NCBI GenBank assembly: GCA_036940085.1
Contig: JALLBK010000658.1
Coordinates: 1 to 10,528, forward strand
Length of the DNA stretch: 10,528 nucleotides
Source of the DNA: Discostella pseudostelligera
Lineage: Eukaryota; Bacillariophyta; Thalassiosirophyceae; Thalassiosirales; Thalassiosiraceae
Direction: 5' to 3'
This document shows, piece by piece, positions 1,847-10,030 of this stretch (position 1 is its first letter; every line of letters starts with the position of its first letter). Below the pieces are notes generated by a model. It searched no databases. It was not told where the DNA came from and saw only the letters and a program-made list of their open reading frames with translations. Made by a program: the position numbers and the translations under genes.

Positions 1847-2385
1847 CTGACTACCTGTCTGTCACCGTCTCTCGTCTGCCCCCTGCATCTCTCCGTCCGC
1901 CGCGCGCGCGCACCTTGATCCGTCGTTCCCTTCAAGAAAGTGATGATGTCGTAACTCAAGAGCAGCTGATGTACCGGTGACCCTTCTCACACTAGGAGTA
2001 CACAGTACAACTTTGCTGGAAATTTTCTCGTAAGTACTTAATCAAAATAAGATGGGATCAAGTTGCTGATTGCAACTGAGAGCTCGGAGATGCCGCGGAA
2101 CATCACCGTCACATCAATCACACACACACTTGCTTCGCTCTCTCAACAACATGTCCAAACTCTACACCCACAGACAATGACACATGACACACAGAAGTGC
2201 ACATGAAAATTCATGGCATGTTGGATTTCCGCTTCAAAAGGTCGTGGATGTGAAGGGAGAGAGATTGATTGACTTTGGAGAGCGACGATGACAGAGCAAT
2301 GAAATAGAGCTGTTGGGTTCAACCAGACGCATTATTTTTCATCACCCCACCGCGAACACGTGTCAATTCTGCGACGACGACAACC

Positions 2386-2410
2386 CGACGACGACGACGA
2401 CGACGACGAC
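2386..2410 (+). repeat. (CGA)n trinucleotide microsatellite before the start codon
   Basis: A perfect CGA/ACG run ends six bases before the chosen ATG at 2417. Read in the gene's frame it would encode an Asp run, but no ATG opens that extension (the upstream in-frame candidate at 2360 is GTG). I therefore treat it as 5' leader. It may be length-polymorphic. Confidence 0.8.
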
Positions 2411-2416
2411 ACCACC

Positions 2417-5400
2417 ATGTCGGACATGGTTCAGGCACACGATGGCGACTACGATAATGATCATCCTGACAAGGTCGATGTGACGATGACGACGACGACG
2501 GATCATGCACTAGACGAGACGAATGAAGACGAGCAGCAACAAGATGATGATGATGACAACCACCTGCTCCACCGGCACAGCAACGAATATCCCTTCCTTG
2601 GAAATGTCGATGATGGAAATTTATTTGACATGCCCCACTATCGGGCACGGCAACGACGTCAACAACAACAGCAGCAACTTCGACGCCATTCCTATCCCGA
2701 GCAATTAATCGGTGCTGGTGGCAGCGGGCTGTCCGACGTTAATGATGATGACGTTGTTGTCGAAGATCAAGATTTTTGCACAACATCTACATGGGAGGAC
2801 GATCACGCTCCGACTACTACCGCTACCGCCACTACTGCTGCCCGTGCCGCCCCGACGGCCGCATCCAACCCTCATCAATCTATTTTGACATCTACCCCGA
2901 CATTAAACATCACCAGCATCATCAAAAAGGAGACGTCAAAGTTCAACACCGGCAAAACCATCACCAATAAAGTCAACAAGACCAACATATCCCTATCCTC
3001 CCTCCCCATTGATGCTCTCCAGACTATATCCACCTACTGCACCGTAACCGATTGGCTTTCCTTATCATCGACATCGCAACATTGGAGACATGGTATCGGA
3101 TCGGAAGTGTTTGAACGTGTGCGACGACATGCAAGCTTGTGTGCCTTTGAGGTGGGGATGGCTTGGGTGAGTACATGCAATATGTTGTCACGTTTCACTT
3201 TGGTCAATAATCCCTCTGCGTTCATGCTTGTTTTTTTCTGATCTCACACACCGCCCTTTATTTTCATTTGTTTCTTCAGGCCATGGGGGAACATGCCGAT
3301 GCACGTGAATTGGCCTGTCTTTACATTTCGAAGGGTGTGCCAATCTATCCGGCACCGAGGGGACATGCCTATCATACATTGGCTTGGAGGATGGGATTGG
3401 AATTGTCGTCATCGACTACTCCTACTGCTTCGACGGGGGATGAGAGAGATGGGGGTCAGAGAACGGGAGATGGGAACACTGCTACTACTACGGCTGTGAA
3501 TGCCGCTGCTGCTGAAGGGAGAAATAGAAATTCCAACGATTTCGATGGTGATGTTAATTCCAACGAAGCGGTAGGTGAAGGTCTGCCACCTACTACGATG
3601 GATGCATTCTACGCTTCTCGATACCTTGATGAAGCCGATGGTAACAATACCGATGGGGTTAATAATCGGAATGTTGACGAAGGTGGTGGTGGTGTTCTTC
3701 GGAGGCGTCCCCCCAATGGTCGTGGTCGCAATCGTCGTCGCAATCGTCAATCTCTCCTCTACTCCCCTAGAGATCGAATGTCAATGACTTATGTCGAGGA
3801 GAAGTCATCGTTTTGGAAACGGAAGAAGGGGATTGAGGAGGAAGGATCCACAGTTACTAGCATCACTTCCGCCGCCGCCGCCGCTCCAATTGGTTTTGGG
3901 TTGGCATCATCCTTTGCAAGGAGAATTCCTCCTCCTCTCCTTGTTCCTCCCCTCGGCCACCCACAGCAGCAACAACGACAGCAGCATCCAGATGACGTGG
4001 CTGCTCCACAGGCTGTTCCTCTGGTGGATGGGCGGGTGCGAGTTGGAGCGTCGACGTCGTCGTTGATTTGGAGTAACAGCGTACCCGATCTACCTTCGTT
4101 GTTGGTCGAGGAAGAAACAGTGTTTGGACTCGACCGTCATAACATTTATCTCGACGCGTTGTTAGAGCATCGGGTTGTCCACCCCACACCGCTCTCTCAT
4201 CTTAGGAGGACGGCGATTATGATGCATGATGTGGTGGTGGCACCCAAGATGACCATGCGCGTGCATCGTCATTTGGCCGATCAACATTTCTTTGGCTCGC
4301 CTTCCGTCGATGATGAGAAAGGGGCCATGACTGCTGGTGAGCGACAATACATGGGAATGTACCTTTTCATTACTGATTTGTCTTAACTCAACGTTGCCAT
4401 TCTTCATTGTAATGTTTTGGTTTCAGGTAAAATGAGCATGAGTGCTGATTTCTTTCATCCAACGTGGGAGGGGCGTAAATGCGTCACGGTCAACAACTAT
4501 GATAGAGGCGATAGTTTGAGTTTGGATGGCTATTGGGATGGAGACTGGGATGGAGCCGAGTGGAGGGGGAGCGCCGACGACACTGACGGTCACCATCATC
4601 AGCATGGGCAGGAGGTCACGGATGGTGTTGTGGAAATCGTTGGCGACGAGAATAATCTATCTGCTGCCTACCGCGATTCGGTGGAGTATTTCGCTGCGTG
4701 GGCTCTGGCAAACCCTAATCCGCAGCGTCGATTGTCATTACCGATTCTGTCCTACGGTAGAGCTCGTCACCCGCTCTCTATGACATACAATCCTTCGTTG
4801 CGATACGGCACACCATCTTCGTCTTCTCCCGCTTCGGATATCCATTTAGATATTTACAGTTGTGCAACCGGTAATATCAAGGCGGAAACAGATAGTGCTA
4901 CCTCGGTTGCTGCCATCGGGAGGATGCGTTCGCGTTGTCAACACTACCAGCAAAGATTGGACGGTCTCCTTAAGAATAGCTTTGACTCCATCCGTTTCCA
5001 AGAATGCTTGCTCGACTTTTGGGATGAGGTATTCCCCGTCACTAGAGGGATACACTTTTACAACAGACAGGCTGCAGTGCCTCGTATGTCCCTCCTCCAT
5101 GCATTCGTGACAACGCCCATTCCGAAGGCCTTGGGTACAATGCAGTGCGAGATTGAACGTGTGAAAATAACTGGGAGGGATAGCAAGGCTGCGACCAAGC
5201 GTGTTAAAGGCCGGTTCTTTCCAAAGTACGAATACCGATTGTTCGTCAGGGATATCAGGAACGATAATCCATTCCAACCAAGTACCTCACCGAGGAAGGA
5301 TAGCGTGTTGTTGGTGGCTAAAAATAAGAGAGGCAAGAATACCATTGCTGCGTCCTCCATGCGAGAATCATCATCCCATCGCAGAGGGAATGGAGTTGGG

Positions 5401-6634
5401 GGTATTGACTTAGCCACTCCCGTTGGATTGGCCAGCCCTAGCAATGGCGTCGCCTCCAAGCGAGGGATTAGCAATTACTACATCTGCCTTCCGCAACAAT
5501 GTGACGTGGACAATCATTTTATGAGCTCAAATCGCGACAATGCTAGCGTTGTTCTCTCTCAGGGCGAATCGTCTGGCCTAGACTTGTCGCCATTGGCGAT
5601 GCAGAAAAGGCATCCGATCGAGGTGGGAAGACTCCAGAGTAACTTTATTGGCACGGAGTTTCAAATCTTTGTACCCGACACGGTTCCGTCAATGACGTCA
5701 GAGGATCAGGATACGGAGTCGGTGTCAGCCATCGATGCTACACGTAGTGGATCGATAAGTCGAAAGGGCGGCGACTTGGTACGGTTGGCCCAGCGGTCAT
5801 TGTCTATCTCTGGAAGGGGAATCTCTAGCCGCAACAGCTCGAGCGGCAATGAATCAGCGGATGAACCCATCGACGAGAGATCAGACGAATCTCGGCATAG
5901 TCGTCAGAAGAAAACGAAGAAGANAATCAGCGGATGAACCCATCGACGAGAGATCAGACGAATCTCGGCATAGTCGTCAGAAGAAAACGAAGAAGGGAAC
6001 TACTCCCAATCCAACAAAATGGACAACAAACCGAAGGGCGATCGCGAACAATTCCGAACACTCTTCGTTCGGTGAACTCTCGAATTCAGCCCCAGCGGTT
6101 CCTCATAGTGCTAATGCGACCAGGGGAGAATTAGAAGACGGGGCCATCACATACACCGCTAACTTGCTTGGCAATCGTCCACGCATGATGGACGTTTGCA
6201 TTCCAAAATTAACGGAGAATGGCAAGGTGTGTGATGAATGGAATGGGCAGCAAGTGAATTCCAACACATCCAACACGATGCAAATGCTTGATCGGTTCAA
6301 GGACATTCTAACAATGATGAACAGTGAAGATGACACCGATGTTGCCGGTATCGGCGGTACAATTGACAATCACGGATTGATGCTTCTTCAGAATCGTCCT
6401 CCTTGGTGGAACATCGAATTGGGGGCATTCGTTCTCAACTTTGGTGGACGCGTTAAAGTCGCCAGCGTGAAGAACTTTCAGTTGTGTGAACGCAATGCTC
6501 AGGAGCACATCATGCAATTCGGTAGAATTGAGGGACGACACGCGTTTACCATGGATTTTCAGTATCCCTTGTCGCCGATGCAGGCTTTTGCCATTGCAAT
6601 TTCTTCGTTGCAGTCGAAGATTTCATTTGGGTAG
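2417..6634 (+). CDS. F-box and Tubby C-terminal domain protein (three exons)
   Basis: Exons are 2417-3166, 3280-4336 and 4427-6634. Phases match exactly (0, then 1), and the total is a multiple of three once one 73-nt unit of the duplication around the N at 5924 is removed, giving about 1313 residues. The ATG at 2417 has a good context (CACCACCATG). An acidic, Q-rich low-complexity start (1-190) is followed by an F-box (about 194-236, L-P-I-D-A-L...W-L-S-L-S...W-R) and a long, mostly disordered middle with an Arg/Gly-rich patch near 391-405. The Tubby domain covers about 839-1313: G-T-M-Q-C-E-I-E-R, F-F-P-K-Y-E-Y, SNYYICL, GRLQSNFIGTEF, YTANLLG, GAFVLNFGGRVKVASVKNFQ and the FTMDFQYPLSPMQAFAIAISS end. 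Known family role: Tubby domains bind membrane phosphoinositides, and F-box domains recruit SKP1-cullin ligases, as in plant TLPs. Here the roles are inferred by homology. Confidence 0.93.
2996..3125 (+). other. F-box domain
   Basis: Residues about 194-236 read S-L-P-I-D-A-L-Q-T-I, then T-V-T-D-W-L-S-L-S-S-T-S-Q-H-W-R, the usual F-box pattern of LP...L..I...L...D...L...S..W. The block ends 14 residues before the first splice site. F-boxes normally bind SKP1. The match is by pattern only. Confidence 0.75.
3167..3279 (+). other. Intron 1 of the F-box/Tubby gene (113 nt)
   Basis: The donor GTGAGT follows the Trp codon TGG. The acceptor TTTGTTTCTTCAG has a clear pyrimidine tract and is followed by GCC ATG GGG GAA. 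The intron is phase 0 and contains an in-frame stop (3239-3241), so reading through would truncate the protein before the Tubby domain. Confidence 0.9.
4337..4426 (+). other. Intron 2 of the F-box/Tubby gene (90 nt)
   Basis: The donor GTGAGC and acceptor TTTTGGTTTCAG define a phase 1 intron. The split codon G|GT encodes Gly and the frame runs on into Lys-Met-Ser-Met. Retention would hit the TAA at 4384-4386. Confidence 0.9.
5134..6631 (+). other. Tubby C-terminal domain, expanded by insertions
   Basis: The conserved Tubby blocks appear in the canonical order but are spread over about 475 residues, against roughly 250-270 in typical members. The extra sequence sits in three places: about 908-945 (after the basic cluster K-N-K-R-G-K-N at 901-907), about 1021-1145 (Ser-rich, containing the N/duplication) and about 1175-1228. 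The basic cluster corresponds to the region of mouse Tubby that carries the phosphoinositide-binding Lys/Arg. The C-terminal helix and strand blocks (1231-1313) are very well conserved, so the fold is probably intact. Confidence 0.92.
5852..5995 (+). repeat. 71-bp exact duplication around an unresolved base (N)
   Basis: Bases 5852-5922 and 5925-5995 are identical and separated by A-N (5923-5924). The offset of 73 shifts the Tubby frame by +1 and leads to a TGA at 5935-5937. Downstream, the frame continues with perfect Tubby homology. Both copies encode the same peptide, starting Ser-Ala-Asp-Glu-Pro and ending Lys-Lys-Thr-Lys-Lys, each in the frame that would be continuous if one copy were dropped. 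This is the signature of two contigs with an unmerged overlap joined by a single N. Confidence 0.9.
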
Positions 6635-6938: not shown

Positions 6939-9900
6939 TTAACCACCACTTACAATACTCACCTCTTCCTCCTCAGCATCACCATCATACTCCTCAACAT
7001 AGTTCTTGCAAGTTTCAGACAGTTTGCGGTATAAGTGCAGAGGCAGCTTGAGAACAACACCATGCTTCTCAATATCATTCGATTCTTTATATGCTCGCCC
7101 CCAGATAATTGTGTCATCATGGTTGGGCCCTTTTTCTTCAAATGACTTCTTCCAAAAAGAGTACAGAGTTGGTGTGAGGGTGCTCAGTTCACCCGATCGT
7201 TTCTCATTGCACATCAGGTGTTGCACCTCATCAAGCCAGAAGTTTTCTATTCCTTCCCATCCAGGTTGACCAAAGAGATGCTTCTTCTTGGCATATGCAG
7301 CAACAAAGAGCTTTGACTCTCGTTTCTCTACTTCCAAATCTTCTGACCATATCGCTTCACCATCTTCGTATTGGCACAGTACCTCAATTTTGTTACCCGA
7401 CTTTCTGTGATCAATAATTTTCTCCATCTTACTCTCTTGATTTTTCCGATTCAGCCAATTGGCGAAATTCTTTGGAAGGACACCATCCAAAAGCCGGTGC
7501 TTCTCCAGTACATATGATCTGAGTGCTACAGGGGGACTGTCTCCAAAATCTTTACGAAGTCTTTGCATCGATATCCATTCCATTTCTCCATTAGACCATT
7601 TGCACTTGAATTCGATGCCCTGTCCAAGCTTTGATCCTTTTGCTCTATGATCAGCAACTTCTACAATATAATCTTTGCCCTCCAATATTTGTCCTCGTGT
7701 CATTTCGACCAACACCTGCATATTTGAACCGGTTGCGACATGGTACAAATCTCCTGCAAGCCTTTGCACAACTTGAGAAGTGAATGTCTTCCCATTGTAC
7801 TCATGTTGAAATTCAGTACCGACAAGCTCATCGTATATAACTTTTCCCAGGTTTGTGTTTGCGGCATCCAATTGAATACCCTCAATCAAACTTGGGTCCC
7901 AAATGCAGTGATACAAATCGCCATCGAGGTCTCCGCTATTGACTTTTGGAGGCAATGGATCATCGCCAAGTGCAAATACTACTGCTCCAAATGGTAGGTG
8001 ATTCAGAAACTGATATGCTTCCCCTGGCATATCTCTCCAGGTTGCAGCTTTTGCAGTAACACCGTCCTTGCCTTCAGTGCATGGCGACTTACAACAAAAT
8101 TCATCCAAAAGTTATGGAAAGCATCCAATACAAATGCGATGATACTGGGCAATGTGGATGAGTTACACTTACCCTAGTTAGAAACATTCGGGAGGGAGCC
8201 CGATCACCAAATCCAGTGAGGAAAACTAGTCCCTTAGGGATGAGTCCGGTGGGGTCGCTCACCCCAACAAGCGATCCATGCTTGATAGCCGCTAAAGCTT
8301 GCTCAATGTCCCTGCCAATTTTCGTCGCCTGCAAAAAATTACGAAGGTCTATGACAAGATTAGGCTGGCGGCTGCACAAAAATACACATGGTCGTATCAT
8401 GCCGGAACTCACAATTTTCAATTAGATGTTCACTGACGCCTTTGCAAAGAAGAACATTGAGAATAGATTCTCCCGGCTCCTCGAGACTCTTAATCATTCT
8501 TGGTGTTGGATCGTTCTCAAAATTGTCATATAATCGTCCCATAATTCTACTTTTCTCCGACGGAAACAATTGAATTATGTTCAAAGCAACAAACTTTTGA
8601 TGAGCTGGCTCCTTTGCTTTACTTTTCTCAACTTTGATCATCGACTTTGGGATCTCTATTTTGTGCCCTTCAAGACCCTCTTTCACCACGAGCATACCCT
8701 TGGCAATTCCAAACGAGGATGGTCCGAACAATCTCACTTGAATGGCAAATTTATCAGCAGCCACAGATGAATTTCCAAGGAGGTCAGATAGATAATCTGG
8801 GTCAATGAAGCCACAGCCCAAGTGACCATCATCTTCGATTACTTTGACATCTTTCTTGGGCAACCAGAAGAAGCAAAATTTGTTTTTATGCCCTGGTAGG
8901 CGACAAGAGGTGGAGAACAAAAGCTTGAGCCTGCTTAGGGTCTTATGTGGCCCATGCTCATATGTGATAGATTCAAAATCCGCAATTGAGGAGAGAAATG
9001 CATTCAGGCTCTTCGATTCATCACCATCCTCATTGGATATTCCAAGGTAGAAACTCTTGTAATATTTTGTGCCCACTGTGTGAAGTAAGAAGATGCAGAA
9101 ATGAATTGATTTGAGTATGTGTGTAAACAACAGTCCTCATGCAATATGCAAAGCATTGTACTTACTCCTGTCCTCTTTTGCCCCATTTGCTTTCCTCCGA
9201 ATTACTTCACTACAAATGATTTCGAACCTCTCCTCAAGTCTATCATCTAAGATACGTTGTGGGGGGCCGTCGCTGATTGTTGTGGTCCTCTTGCGCATAG
9301 TCCTCCCCAGCTGGTTGACGAGTTGAGCAAAGTAGTAACATTCTGGCTCCAACCTCTCCTCAGCAGGTGCATCAAATGTTGATGTGAGGAACTTTGATAC
9401 ATCATTCTTGTTAAATCGACGCCTATTTACCTTCTTCTTTGCTGGGCGCTTGGTCGGTAGTACTACTTCCCCTGGCAGGATTCCCTCTGCCATAGCTTGG
9501 TCGACTTCACCTCCTGAAAACCGGCTGCAATCATCGGCACCACTGGTGCTAAATAAGCTCTTATTGTCACTTGATTCATCACCCAAATTCTCTTCTTCCT
9601 TCTTTCCCTCTTCATTCTCATCATCACTGTTACCAAATATACTTGCATTGTCATCTGAATCCCCATTTACTTCTTCTACTCCATCTTTGTCCACATCTTC
9701 CTCCTCTTCTACCTCATTGTTTGATCGATGCCCACTTTCACACTTGTTGCTAGATGATGATGTACCCTCCATGTATTTTTCAGGGGTAACCACTACGATA
9801 GAAGGAGGAGATGGTTCAACTTCATTTTCATCATTGTCGTACCACTCTCCCTCTTCTCTTTTGATAGCCCTGGCGCGTGTTGACCTGGTATTGTATTGAT

Positions 9901-10030
9901 GGATATTATTGAAGCGCTTTGTTCCACAATTATCCTCATTGTTGTTGTCGTCATCATCATCAGTGTCAGCTTGGGTGAGGTCAACTACATCCATTATAGA
10001 GTTGGATGCATCATTCATCTTGATGTTCAT
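6939..10030 (-). CDS. Eukaryotic RNA-dependent RNA polymerase with chromo/Tudor-like insert (four exons)
   Basis: Exons are 10030-9166, 9075-8413, 8348-8173 and 8087-6939, all frame-compatible, giving about 950 residues. Family blocks in order: D-G-H-L-G-C-G-F-I-D-P-D (371-382), Q-V-R-L-F-G...A-K-G (401-415), K-S-M-I-K (432-436), G-V-S-D-P-T-G-L-I-P-K-G (538-549), T-R-S-P-C (567-571), the catalytic S-G-D-L-D-G-D-L-Y (619-627) and D-I-E-K-H-G (906-911). These match cellular RdRPs (plant RDR, QDE-1, EGO-1), which copy single-stranded RNA into dsRNA for small-RNA silencing. Residues 656-845 hold a Tudor-like and two chromo-like segments. The N-terminus (1-190) is acidic and disordered, followed by a basic NLS-like cluster (194-205). 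The ATG at 10030 lies inside a longer frame starting at 10132; I prefer 10030 because the extra part is simple repeat. The C-terminus could differ by splicing at 6962. Confidence 0.88.
7059..7079 (-). other. C-terminal RdRP block N-D-I-E-K-H-G
   Basis: Residues 905-911. In RDR-type enzymes a block of the form A-V-D-F-x-K-T-G lies downstream of the catalytic motif; this D-x-x-K-x-G, followed by a hydrophobic L-K-L-P-x-H-L, looks like its equivalent. If so, the polymerase domain resumes after the insert. This is a pattern match only. Confidence 0.5.
7257..7427 (-). other. Chromo-like repeat B
   Basis: Residues about 789-845 contain M-E-K-I-I-D-H-R-K-S-G (789-799), C-Q-Y-E-D-G-E (806-812), W815, Y833 and K-K-H-L, ending with P-G-W. 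It aligns with repeat A (80 residues apart) at DHR, the C-x-W/Y-x-x-G-E core, the following W and the K-H-x-L helix, so the two are tandem duplicates. The first cage position is Met here and the second is Tyr. Confidence 0.55.
7488..7673 (-). other. Chromo-like repeat A
   Basis: Residues about 707-768 contain D-Y-I-V-E-V-A-D-H-R (707-716), F-K-C-K-W-S-N-G (728-735), W739 and a closing helix with Y760. The order of E-x-x-x-D-H-R, hydrophobic strand, W-x-x-G, W and a helix ending in Y-x-x-x-K-H matches chromo-like domains. Y708, W732 and W739 are candidate cage or core aromatics. Confidence 0.55.
7677..7826 (-). other. Tudor-like segment in the RdRP insert
   Basis: Residues about 656-705 read L-V-G-T-E-F-Q-H-E-Y-N-G-K-T-F, then V-V...L-Y-H-V...V-L-V-E-M. 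This resembles the small barrel pattern G-x-x-F-x-x-x-F-D-G-x-x-F-x-G-x-V...Y-x-V-x-Y-x-D-G-D-x-E of PTM/DIR17-type Tudor domains. Where those domains have D-G-D, this has T-G-S-N, so the assignment is tentative. Confidence 0.4.
7917..7931 (-). other. Catalytic DLDGD motif of the RdRP
   Basis: Residues 621-625, within S-G-D-L-D-G-D-L-Y-H-C-I-W-D. The three Asp residues coordinate Mg2+ in this family. All are present, so activity is plausible. Confidence 0.95.
8088..8172 (-). other. Intron 3 of the RdRP gene (85 nt)
   Basis: The donor GTAAGT (8172-8167) follows the AGG codon (Arg568) and the acceptor TTTTGTTGTAAG ends at 8088. The intron is phase 0. Joining gives Thr-Arg-Ser-Pro-Cys, the expected family block before the catalytic motif, which supports both sites. 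Confidence 0.85.
8349..8412 (-). other. Intron 2 of the RdRP gene (64 nt), acceptor uncertain
   Basis: The donor GTGAGT (8412-8407) is strong. The only nearby acceptor that keeps the frame is CTAATCTTGTCATAG (ending 8349), with split codon T|AC for Tyr. This leaves a continuous helical stretch typical of the segment before G-V-x-D. A better-looking acceptor, TTTTTTGCAG, lies about 20 nt further on but breaks the frame from this donor; it would fit only with a weak GTGCAG donor. Confidence 0.65.
9076..9165 (-). other. Intron 1 of the RdRP gene (90 nt)
   Basis: On the minus strand the donor is GTAAGT (9165-9160) and the acceptor TTCTTACTTCACACAG ends at 9076. The split codon A|TG encodes Met and the frame continues Gly-Thr-Lys-Tyr-Tyr. 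Without splicing the frame stops at TGA (9139-9137). Confidence 0.85.
9166..10030 (-). other. N-terminal exon: acidic disordered region, SIM-like motif and NLS-like cluster
   Basis: Residues 1-288. D-V-V-D-L-T-Q-A-D-T-D-D-D-D (14-27) has the hydrophobic-plus-acidic form of a SUMO-interacting motif. Residues 60-180 are dominated by Asp, Glu, Ser and Asn. K-R-P-A-K-K-K-V-N-R-R-R (194-205) looks like a nuclear localisation signal. The last 80 residues are more ordered and helical. The exon ends with the donor GTAAGT, phase 1. Confidence 0.75.

Follow-up and report, generated by a model that had tools for sequence, protein, structure and literature searches.

A diatom RNA-silencing-type RNA-dependent RNA polymerase with a predicted internal Tudor- and chromo-like arm, and the kinship of its chromo-like units with a copia retrotransposon segment

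The 10,528-nucleotide stretch of the diatom Discostella pseudostelligera analysed here, called the window, carries a gene that sequence comparison supports as a cellular RNA-dependent RNA polymerase (RdRP) of the RNA-silencing type with an internal arm. The arm is an insert between two polymerase motifs and, as supported by predicted structure and profile comparisons, it contains one Tudor-like and two chromo-like units. To judge from profile-profile alignment, the chromo units share ancestry with a segment found behind the integrase of copia retrotransposons in the same genome. What is new is thus an internal cassette in a known polymerase family, with chromo units held in common with retrotransposons. 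The features of the gene, with residues numbered on the spliced RdRP protein, are the following.

6939..10030, minus strand: RdRP gene, 950 residues; exons 10030-9166, 9075-8413, 8348-8173 and 8087-6939, with GT-AG introns, open throughout
7917..7931, minus strand: catalytic DLDGD, residues 621-625, with the DxDGD aspartates present
7266..7844, minus strand: insert, about residues 650-842, which neither of the genome's other two RdRP genes has
7677..7832, minus strand: Tudor-like unit, about residues 654-705, predicted as four strands and a short helix
7545..7673, minus strand: chromo-like unit 1, about residues 707-749, predicted as three strands and a helix
7452..7529, minus strand: helices behind unit 1, about residues 755-780, with an L..Y signature that is repeated after unit 2
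7278..7445, minus strand: chromo-like unit 2, about residues 783-838, nearest to chromoshadow domains among the structural matches listed
7059..7076, minus strand: DIEKHG block of the polymerase, residues 906-911, downstream of the insert

Contig C643, to which the window belongs, is one of 963 in an assembly of 23 Mb; three of these contigs have matches to silicon transporters (best 8.1e-224), in keeping with a diatom. The start codon of the RdRP gene is a chosen, putative ATG. The spliced protein matches the Pfam RdRP family (PF05183) at 7e-21 and 75 bits, above the curated cut-off of 23.8; the exon 2 frame by itself reaches 8.5e-10, and a Pfam scan of exon 1 returned no match. No row of the 16-row alignment deviates from the three aspartates and the glycine of DLDGD. 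These results uphold the identification as a silencing-type RdRP made in an earlier reading of the letters alone (the sequence-only reading), and re-splicing the four exons returned the same numbering for DLDGD and for the block at 906. Exon 8087-6939 is a single open frame in which the catalytic motif is followed by the insert; its relatives have 33-69% identity, plus one near copy (P0001). As relatives keep this stretch open and conserve its sequence, it is most probably coding and in frame with the polymerase; its membership of the RdRP, assumed in the sequence-only reading, appears sound, and on the same ground intron retention or a foreign exon was rejected as the source of the insert.

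In the window protein 285 residues separate the start of DLDGD from the start of DIEKHG. In 101 proteins without the insert the median of this distance is 100, with 95 values at 80-119 and a maximum of 173, as measured start to start by a simple first-match rule, which gave no measurement for 15 of 138 proteins and misreads at least P0060 among the insert-less proteins and several insert-bearing rows. The spacing of about 280 residues already noted from the letters therefore stands, while the 130-160 residues then expected of plant or fungal RDRs were too many, and the excess is bigger than was thought. When a last-match rule is used, P0113 measures 202 residues, spanning a long low-complexity loop, and 20 of the 22 insert-bearing proteins fall at 267-294 counted from the end of DLDGD; this rule misreads P0017 and P0125. 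The 138 relatives comprise 118 of the RdRP encoded on contig C24 and 20 of the window exon. The long insert of the window protein recurs in 16 of the latter (P0001-P0015 and P0017), while P0016, P0018 and P0020 are fragments holding part of it and P0019 is without it; among the C24 relatives it is found in six (P0111, P0112, P0119, P0122, P0125 and P0135). Each of these six is one continuous open frame (671-1004 residues), so that in full-length relatives the insert lies in frame with the polymerase. Insert identity to the window is 21-64% overall, with the six full-length proteins at 21-28%, and seven columns are invariant across the 22 rows of the insert alignment, which omits the near copy P0001, the three fragments and P0019.

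Besides the window, the genome has two RdRP matches, on contigs C24 and C207. The C24 protein is a 913-residue single frame in which DLDGD and K-T-H-G are 97 residues apart, counted by hand from start to start; the C207 gene is split by introns and has a likewise short spacing, as read by eye. Insert-less paralogues and relatives thus have about 100 residues at this site, and ordinary RdRP secondary structure was rejected as the identity of the insert; the structure prediction for region 640-850 agrees, thereby sparing the sequence-only reading one possible refutation. That reading mentioned neither these two insert-less genes nor the copia kinship of the chromo units.

The polymerase tree comprises 46 rows (the window, one paralogue, eight insert-bearing proteins and 36 insert-less proteins chosen by hand from 113) and 412 columns retained by filling, nearly all of them outside the insert; the exon-only pieces P0001-P0013, P0015, P0016, P0018 and P0020 are omitted, as is the C207 RdRP. 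Nine insert-bearing rows and the insert-less P0019 are separated from all other rows by one branch (ultrafast bootstrap 91, Shimodaira-Hasegawa-like approximate likelihood ratio test, SH-aLRT, 84), and the window clusters with P0014, P0017 and P0019 at 100/99. On this unrooted tree the presence of the insert requires two changes (2-3 in bootstrap trees), most simply read as a single gain and a single loss. The insert-bearing clade is diverse in insert sequence. In P0019, within this clade, a Tudor-looking stretch can be seen by eye behind the polymerase.

Confidence in a first structure model was low ahead of the insert and middling within it (block means 52-87); in an AlphaFold2 model, residues 640-845 have a mean predicted local distance difference test score (pLDDT) of 83.8. 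In predicted structure, the chromodomain fold, a three-stranded sheet packed by a C-terminal helix, matches solved chromodomains, the chromoshadow fold (PF01393) is matched as well, and the structural matches listed include chromodomains that read methylated lysine 9 of histone H3 (H3K9me). Units 1 and 2 together align with the tandem chromodomains of Chd1, with a large root-mean-square deviation, and hhalign relates the two units to each other with a probability of 96.4 (E 1.4e-9). The Tudor-like unit aligns with PF21743-type (PTM/DIR17-like) Tudors with a probability of 91.4 (E 8.9e-7) and a score of 32.3, whereas the highest of 60 shuffles scored 15.9. The 50 structural matches listed contain no Tudor structure, as chromo folds fill the list, which leaves the Tudor-like unit unaffected. 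Among 15 relatives scanned with Pfam Chromo (PF00385) at E up to 1, three matched, the best at 7.5e-4, and P0122 gave 8.6e-4 and 19.6 bits. Of the sequences in the PDB, cpSRP43, a chromodomain protein, matches the insert best (E 0.16), followed by Cas10 and Tra1.

Several results weigh against these assignments. The window reaches 12.1 to 16.7 bits with Pfam Chromo (cut-off 25.1), and 12.7 and 12.9 bits with Pfam chromoshadow (cut-off 22.4); PF21743 was found by Pfam scan neither in the window segment nor in the 15 scanned relatives. Matches in the Pfam scans of the insert were weak throughout, and some were to unrelated families. When a first set of chromodomains was compared with shuffles, unit 1 was barely above them and unit 2 was not. 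Predicted structure, structural comparison and shuffle-controlled profiles nevertheless support one Tudor-like and two chromo-like units, in agreement with the segments recognised from the letters.

A profile of 44 chromo repeats was searched against 1759 open frames of hand-picked loci, a set outside which other relatives may exist. Outside the window it matched three copia loci that had been found through RVT_2, namely L034 (1.6e-10, 37.5 bits), L035 (1.8e-6, 24.5 bits) and L033 (2.4e-6, 24.1 bits); shuffled frames were matched in 2 of 20 rounds, at most with 15.7 bits. With the unit 1 profile a marginal match (0.0027) was obtained in a 41-residue frame of copia locus L031. Canonical chromodomains of the genome were rejected as nearest kin, the repeat profile having missed their loci among the same frames. 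The copia match is located between the integrase core (rve 0.00036, sub-threshold at 21.2 bits vs 32.6) and the reverse transcriptase (RVT_2 1.9e-18). In the window gene the Pfam scan found neither rve nor RVT_2; the insert is related to the copia segment, but the gene is no element itself.

Profile-profile comparison of the RdRP insert with the copia segment, whose profile consists of four pieces from one genome, gave a score of 52.6 (E 7e-8). Column shuffles reached at most 18.2 in 60 and 21.05 in 400, so that none of the 400 attained the observed score. Tiles of the copia frame scored 35 with the chromo part and 8.8-20 away from it, RdRP core columns scored 8.8-11.8, and each insert sub-clade taken singly scored 38-46. 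The likeness comprises the chromo unit and the helix that follows it; the order of parts matches too if the Tudor-like start of the copia segment is real, for which the score was 17.4 vs a shuffle maximum of 11.8, over 11 columns only. The copia element has one chromo unit, whereas the window RdRP has two and neither integrase nor reverse transcriptase. The assignment of domains in the copia segment is opposed by comparisons with canonical families: the segment had no match to Pfam Chromo, its Tudor-like part did no better than shuffles with PF21743 Tudors, and its chromo part no better with canonical chromodomains. A viral origin of the insert was rejected because viral contigs, when scanned with three queries (exon 4 alignment, copia segment and P0122), yielded no relative in scans that mainly detect close ones.

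Passages of two papers report a chromodomain at the C-terminus of the integrases of diatom CoDi elements (PMC2774666, PMC5348765), for which the copia segment of this genome is a candidate counterpart. In Ectocarpus, chromodomain or Tudor tails occur in retroelement polyproteins of a stramenopile, in this case Gypsy and not copia, according to parts of a 2025 report whose authors call their element the first Tudor-bearing one (PMC12477816).

The probable explanation of these data is that the insert is an old, copia-related arm in the loop behind DLDGD, and that it tethers a silencing RdRP to transposon chromatin. Most likely outside catalysis, the arm would hold the polymerase at chromatin rich in transposons, directly or through a protein on that chromatin; double-stranded RNA (dsRNA) would then be made on nascent transposon transcripts and handed to Dicer and Argonaute. 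Among the frames of the genome is a Dicer-like one that has two RNase III domains, and there is an Argonaute-like piece that lies below the Pfam cut-off and has a stop codon within the matched stretch. The explanation starts from the observed anatomy, the predicted folds, the single tree branch and the copia homology; from these we infer the tethering, its target and the direction of transfer. Transposon chromatin is proposed as the target because Phaeodactylum transposons are jointly associated with small RNAs, with DNA methylation and with repressive histone marks, as described in sections of two papers (PMC4247016, PMC9998398). There, small RNAs accompany DNA methylation of transposons (PMC4247016), most of the regions whose methylation is lost in DNMT5 mutants are covered by repressive marks, and the transposon genes derepressed in these mutants are mostly CoDi (PMC9998398).

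More tentatively, the RdRP lineage may have captured the tail of a CoDi-type copia element, doubled its chromo unit and come to track the elements to their chromatin niche. If this is true, the guidance device of a parasite now guides its silencer; the kinship suggests a guidance module common to the silencing enzyme and to the mobile elements that it may keep in check. A transfer in the opposite direction, in which copia took the segment from a host protein such as the RdRP lineage, is somewhat doubtful, and so is a third host family as the source for both. The pairwise scores (46 between units 1 and 2, 51 between unit 1 and copia, 43 between unit 2 and copia) are alike, so that no order of events stands out, and a common host source is compatible with a profile search that spanned 1759 open frames. 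However, protein searches of the genome with the insert matched the window alone, and the copia segment as query gave seven matches on five contigs, every one of them also carrying an RVT_2 match. Moreover, chromodomains at the integrase end are reported in several retroelement lineages, in passages of three papers (PMC5348765, PMC12477816, PMC11541908).

It is unlikely that the arm is a true methyl-lysine reader, similar to HP1 or Chp1, which would recognise H3K9me or methylated lysine 27 of histone H3 (H3K27me) on transposons and unite the roles of RDRC and Chp1 in one chain. The chromo folds, the H3K9me-reading chromodomains among the structural matches listed and the repressive marks over methylated transposons of Phaeodactylum, as described in part of PMC9998398, would suit such a reader. 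In unit 1, with cage columns assigned from sequence rather than structure in 22 rows, residue 708, near the first cage position, and residue 732, at the second, are each aromatic in 18 rows and jointly in 17. On the other hand, the strictly aligned first position, residue 707, is aromatic in 2/22 rows and the third is glycine in 21; in unit 2 the first position is aromatic in none of the rows, the second in 21, and the third is glycine in 19. The three-aromatic cage of the HP1 type is therefore not conserved in either unit in these rows, and with both units below the Pfam cut-offs and unit 2 most like a chromoshadow domain, the view of the modules as histone readers, taken in the sequence-only reading, was not borne out. 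Targeting without a cage is possible, since chromoshadow domains bind proteins (they dimerise and take PxVxL-type peptides) and since the chromodomains of centromere-targeting CRM elements are without the three aromatics. The latter is reported in a section of PMC11541908. A chromatin role of the arm is plausible.

KOW, chromo-barrel and Tudor folds sometimes bind RNA or DNA or brace polymerases, and the arm might likewise serve template handling, unrelated to chromatin. Many relatives have KOW domains (precomputed Pfam PF00467), and a loop adjoining the active site is a plausible position for such a part. We regard this as improbable: members of the family without the insert are common, and hence the RdRP core does not need it, and the best fold match among those listed is the chromoshadow domain, a protein-binding fold. 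That the insert is a functionless, tolerated passenger from a retroelement insertion is hardly credible, although the loop carries low-complexity expansions in other relatives and P0019 is without the insert, given that the insert is open and retains its seven invariant columns in rows down to 21% identity.

In common with cellular RdRPs such as Arabidopsis RDR2 and Neurospora QDE-1, the diatom enzyme has the RdRP profile, DLDGD and the upstream region; by sequence, its insert-less paralogue recovers RDR2 (7eu0, 4e-5) and QDE-1 (5fsw, 0.0012). What sets it apart from both is a distance from DLDGD to the K-H-G block that is longer by about 185 residues. In fission yeast, through RDRC and RITS/Chp1, and in plants, through Pol IV-RDR2 and SHH1, RdRP is coupled to silent chromatin via a reader. 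In both systems the reader is a separate subunit, whereas in the diatom a candidate reader lies within the polymerase chain; to our knowledge, the siting of dsRNA synthesis on chromatin takes separate subunits in such systems. With a chromo/Tudor arm built into the polymerase, this coupling would reside in one testable polypeptide. We know of no step by which transposon silencing is aimed in diatoms, and the shared copia ancestry provides a concrete hypothesis for the aiming of silencing at diatom retrotransposons. As the sequence-only reading had supposed, no characterised RdRP with readers at this site was found: the papers listed by the literature search, with most subscription journals and preprints outside its coverage, include none on an RdRP with such an insert, the words RDR and RdRP are absent from the main text of PMC12477816, and chromo and Tudor are unmentioned in the main text of an oomycete silencing-protein survey (PMC10080066).

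Precomputed Pfam annotation gives Chromo for the relatives P0060, P0110 and P0113 (P0113 confirmed by rescan), PF21743 Tudor for P0033, P0107, P0114, P0116, P0117 and P0121, and KOW or PHD among the relatives too. In ten algal RdRPs inspected by eye, namely these nine and P0129, the Chromo, PF21743 Tudor or PHD domains precede the polymerase (for P0113 also in the Pfam rescan), whereas the Tudor- and chromo-like units of the window gene are inside it. The picture of algal RdRPs is thus widened, with reader-type domains before the polymerase in several relatives and inside it in this clade. P0060 has the chromo motif in four copies. Long tails behind the polymerase are present in P0128, P0132, P0134, P0094 and P0102; those of the first three look SAP-like by eye, and RNase H (PF00075, PF13456) is precomputed for P0102.

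The insert-less RdRP gene of contig C24 is intronless (L004 3946-6687, minus strand, G000:C24; 913 residues). Two KOW/SH3-like stretches are seen by eye at its N-terminus, where Pfam lists RdRP only, and it adjoins, again by eye, a gene like that for phosphoenolpyruvate carboxylase. Directly before the C207 RdRP, on the same strand, is an open reading frame (L005 391-4190, G000:C207) with two CXXC (2.6e-16) and two PHD (1.1e-6) domains; its end resembles an RdRP N-terminus by eye, and the two may be one gene.

Elsewhere in the window, positions 2303-6634 on the plus strand match F-box (3.5e-5) and, below threshold, Tubby (0.0067), and probably represent the gene of a Tubby-like F-box protein. 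Within it, at 5852-5995, an exact 73-base duplication flanks a single N and is probably an unmerged assembly join. Positions 1-1170 consist of GGTGCAGA-like units in degenerate tandem arrays, and their minus strand shows long frames due to chance.
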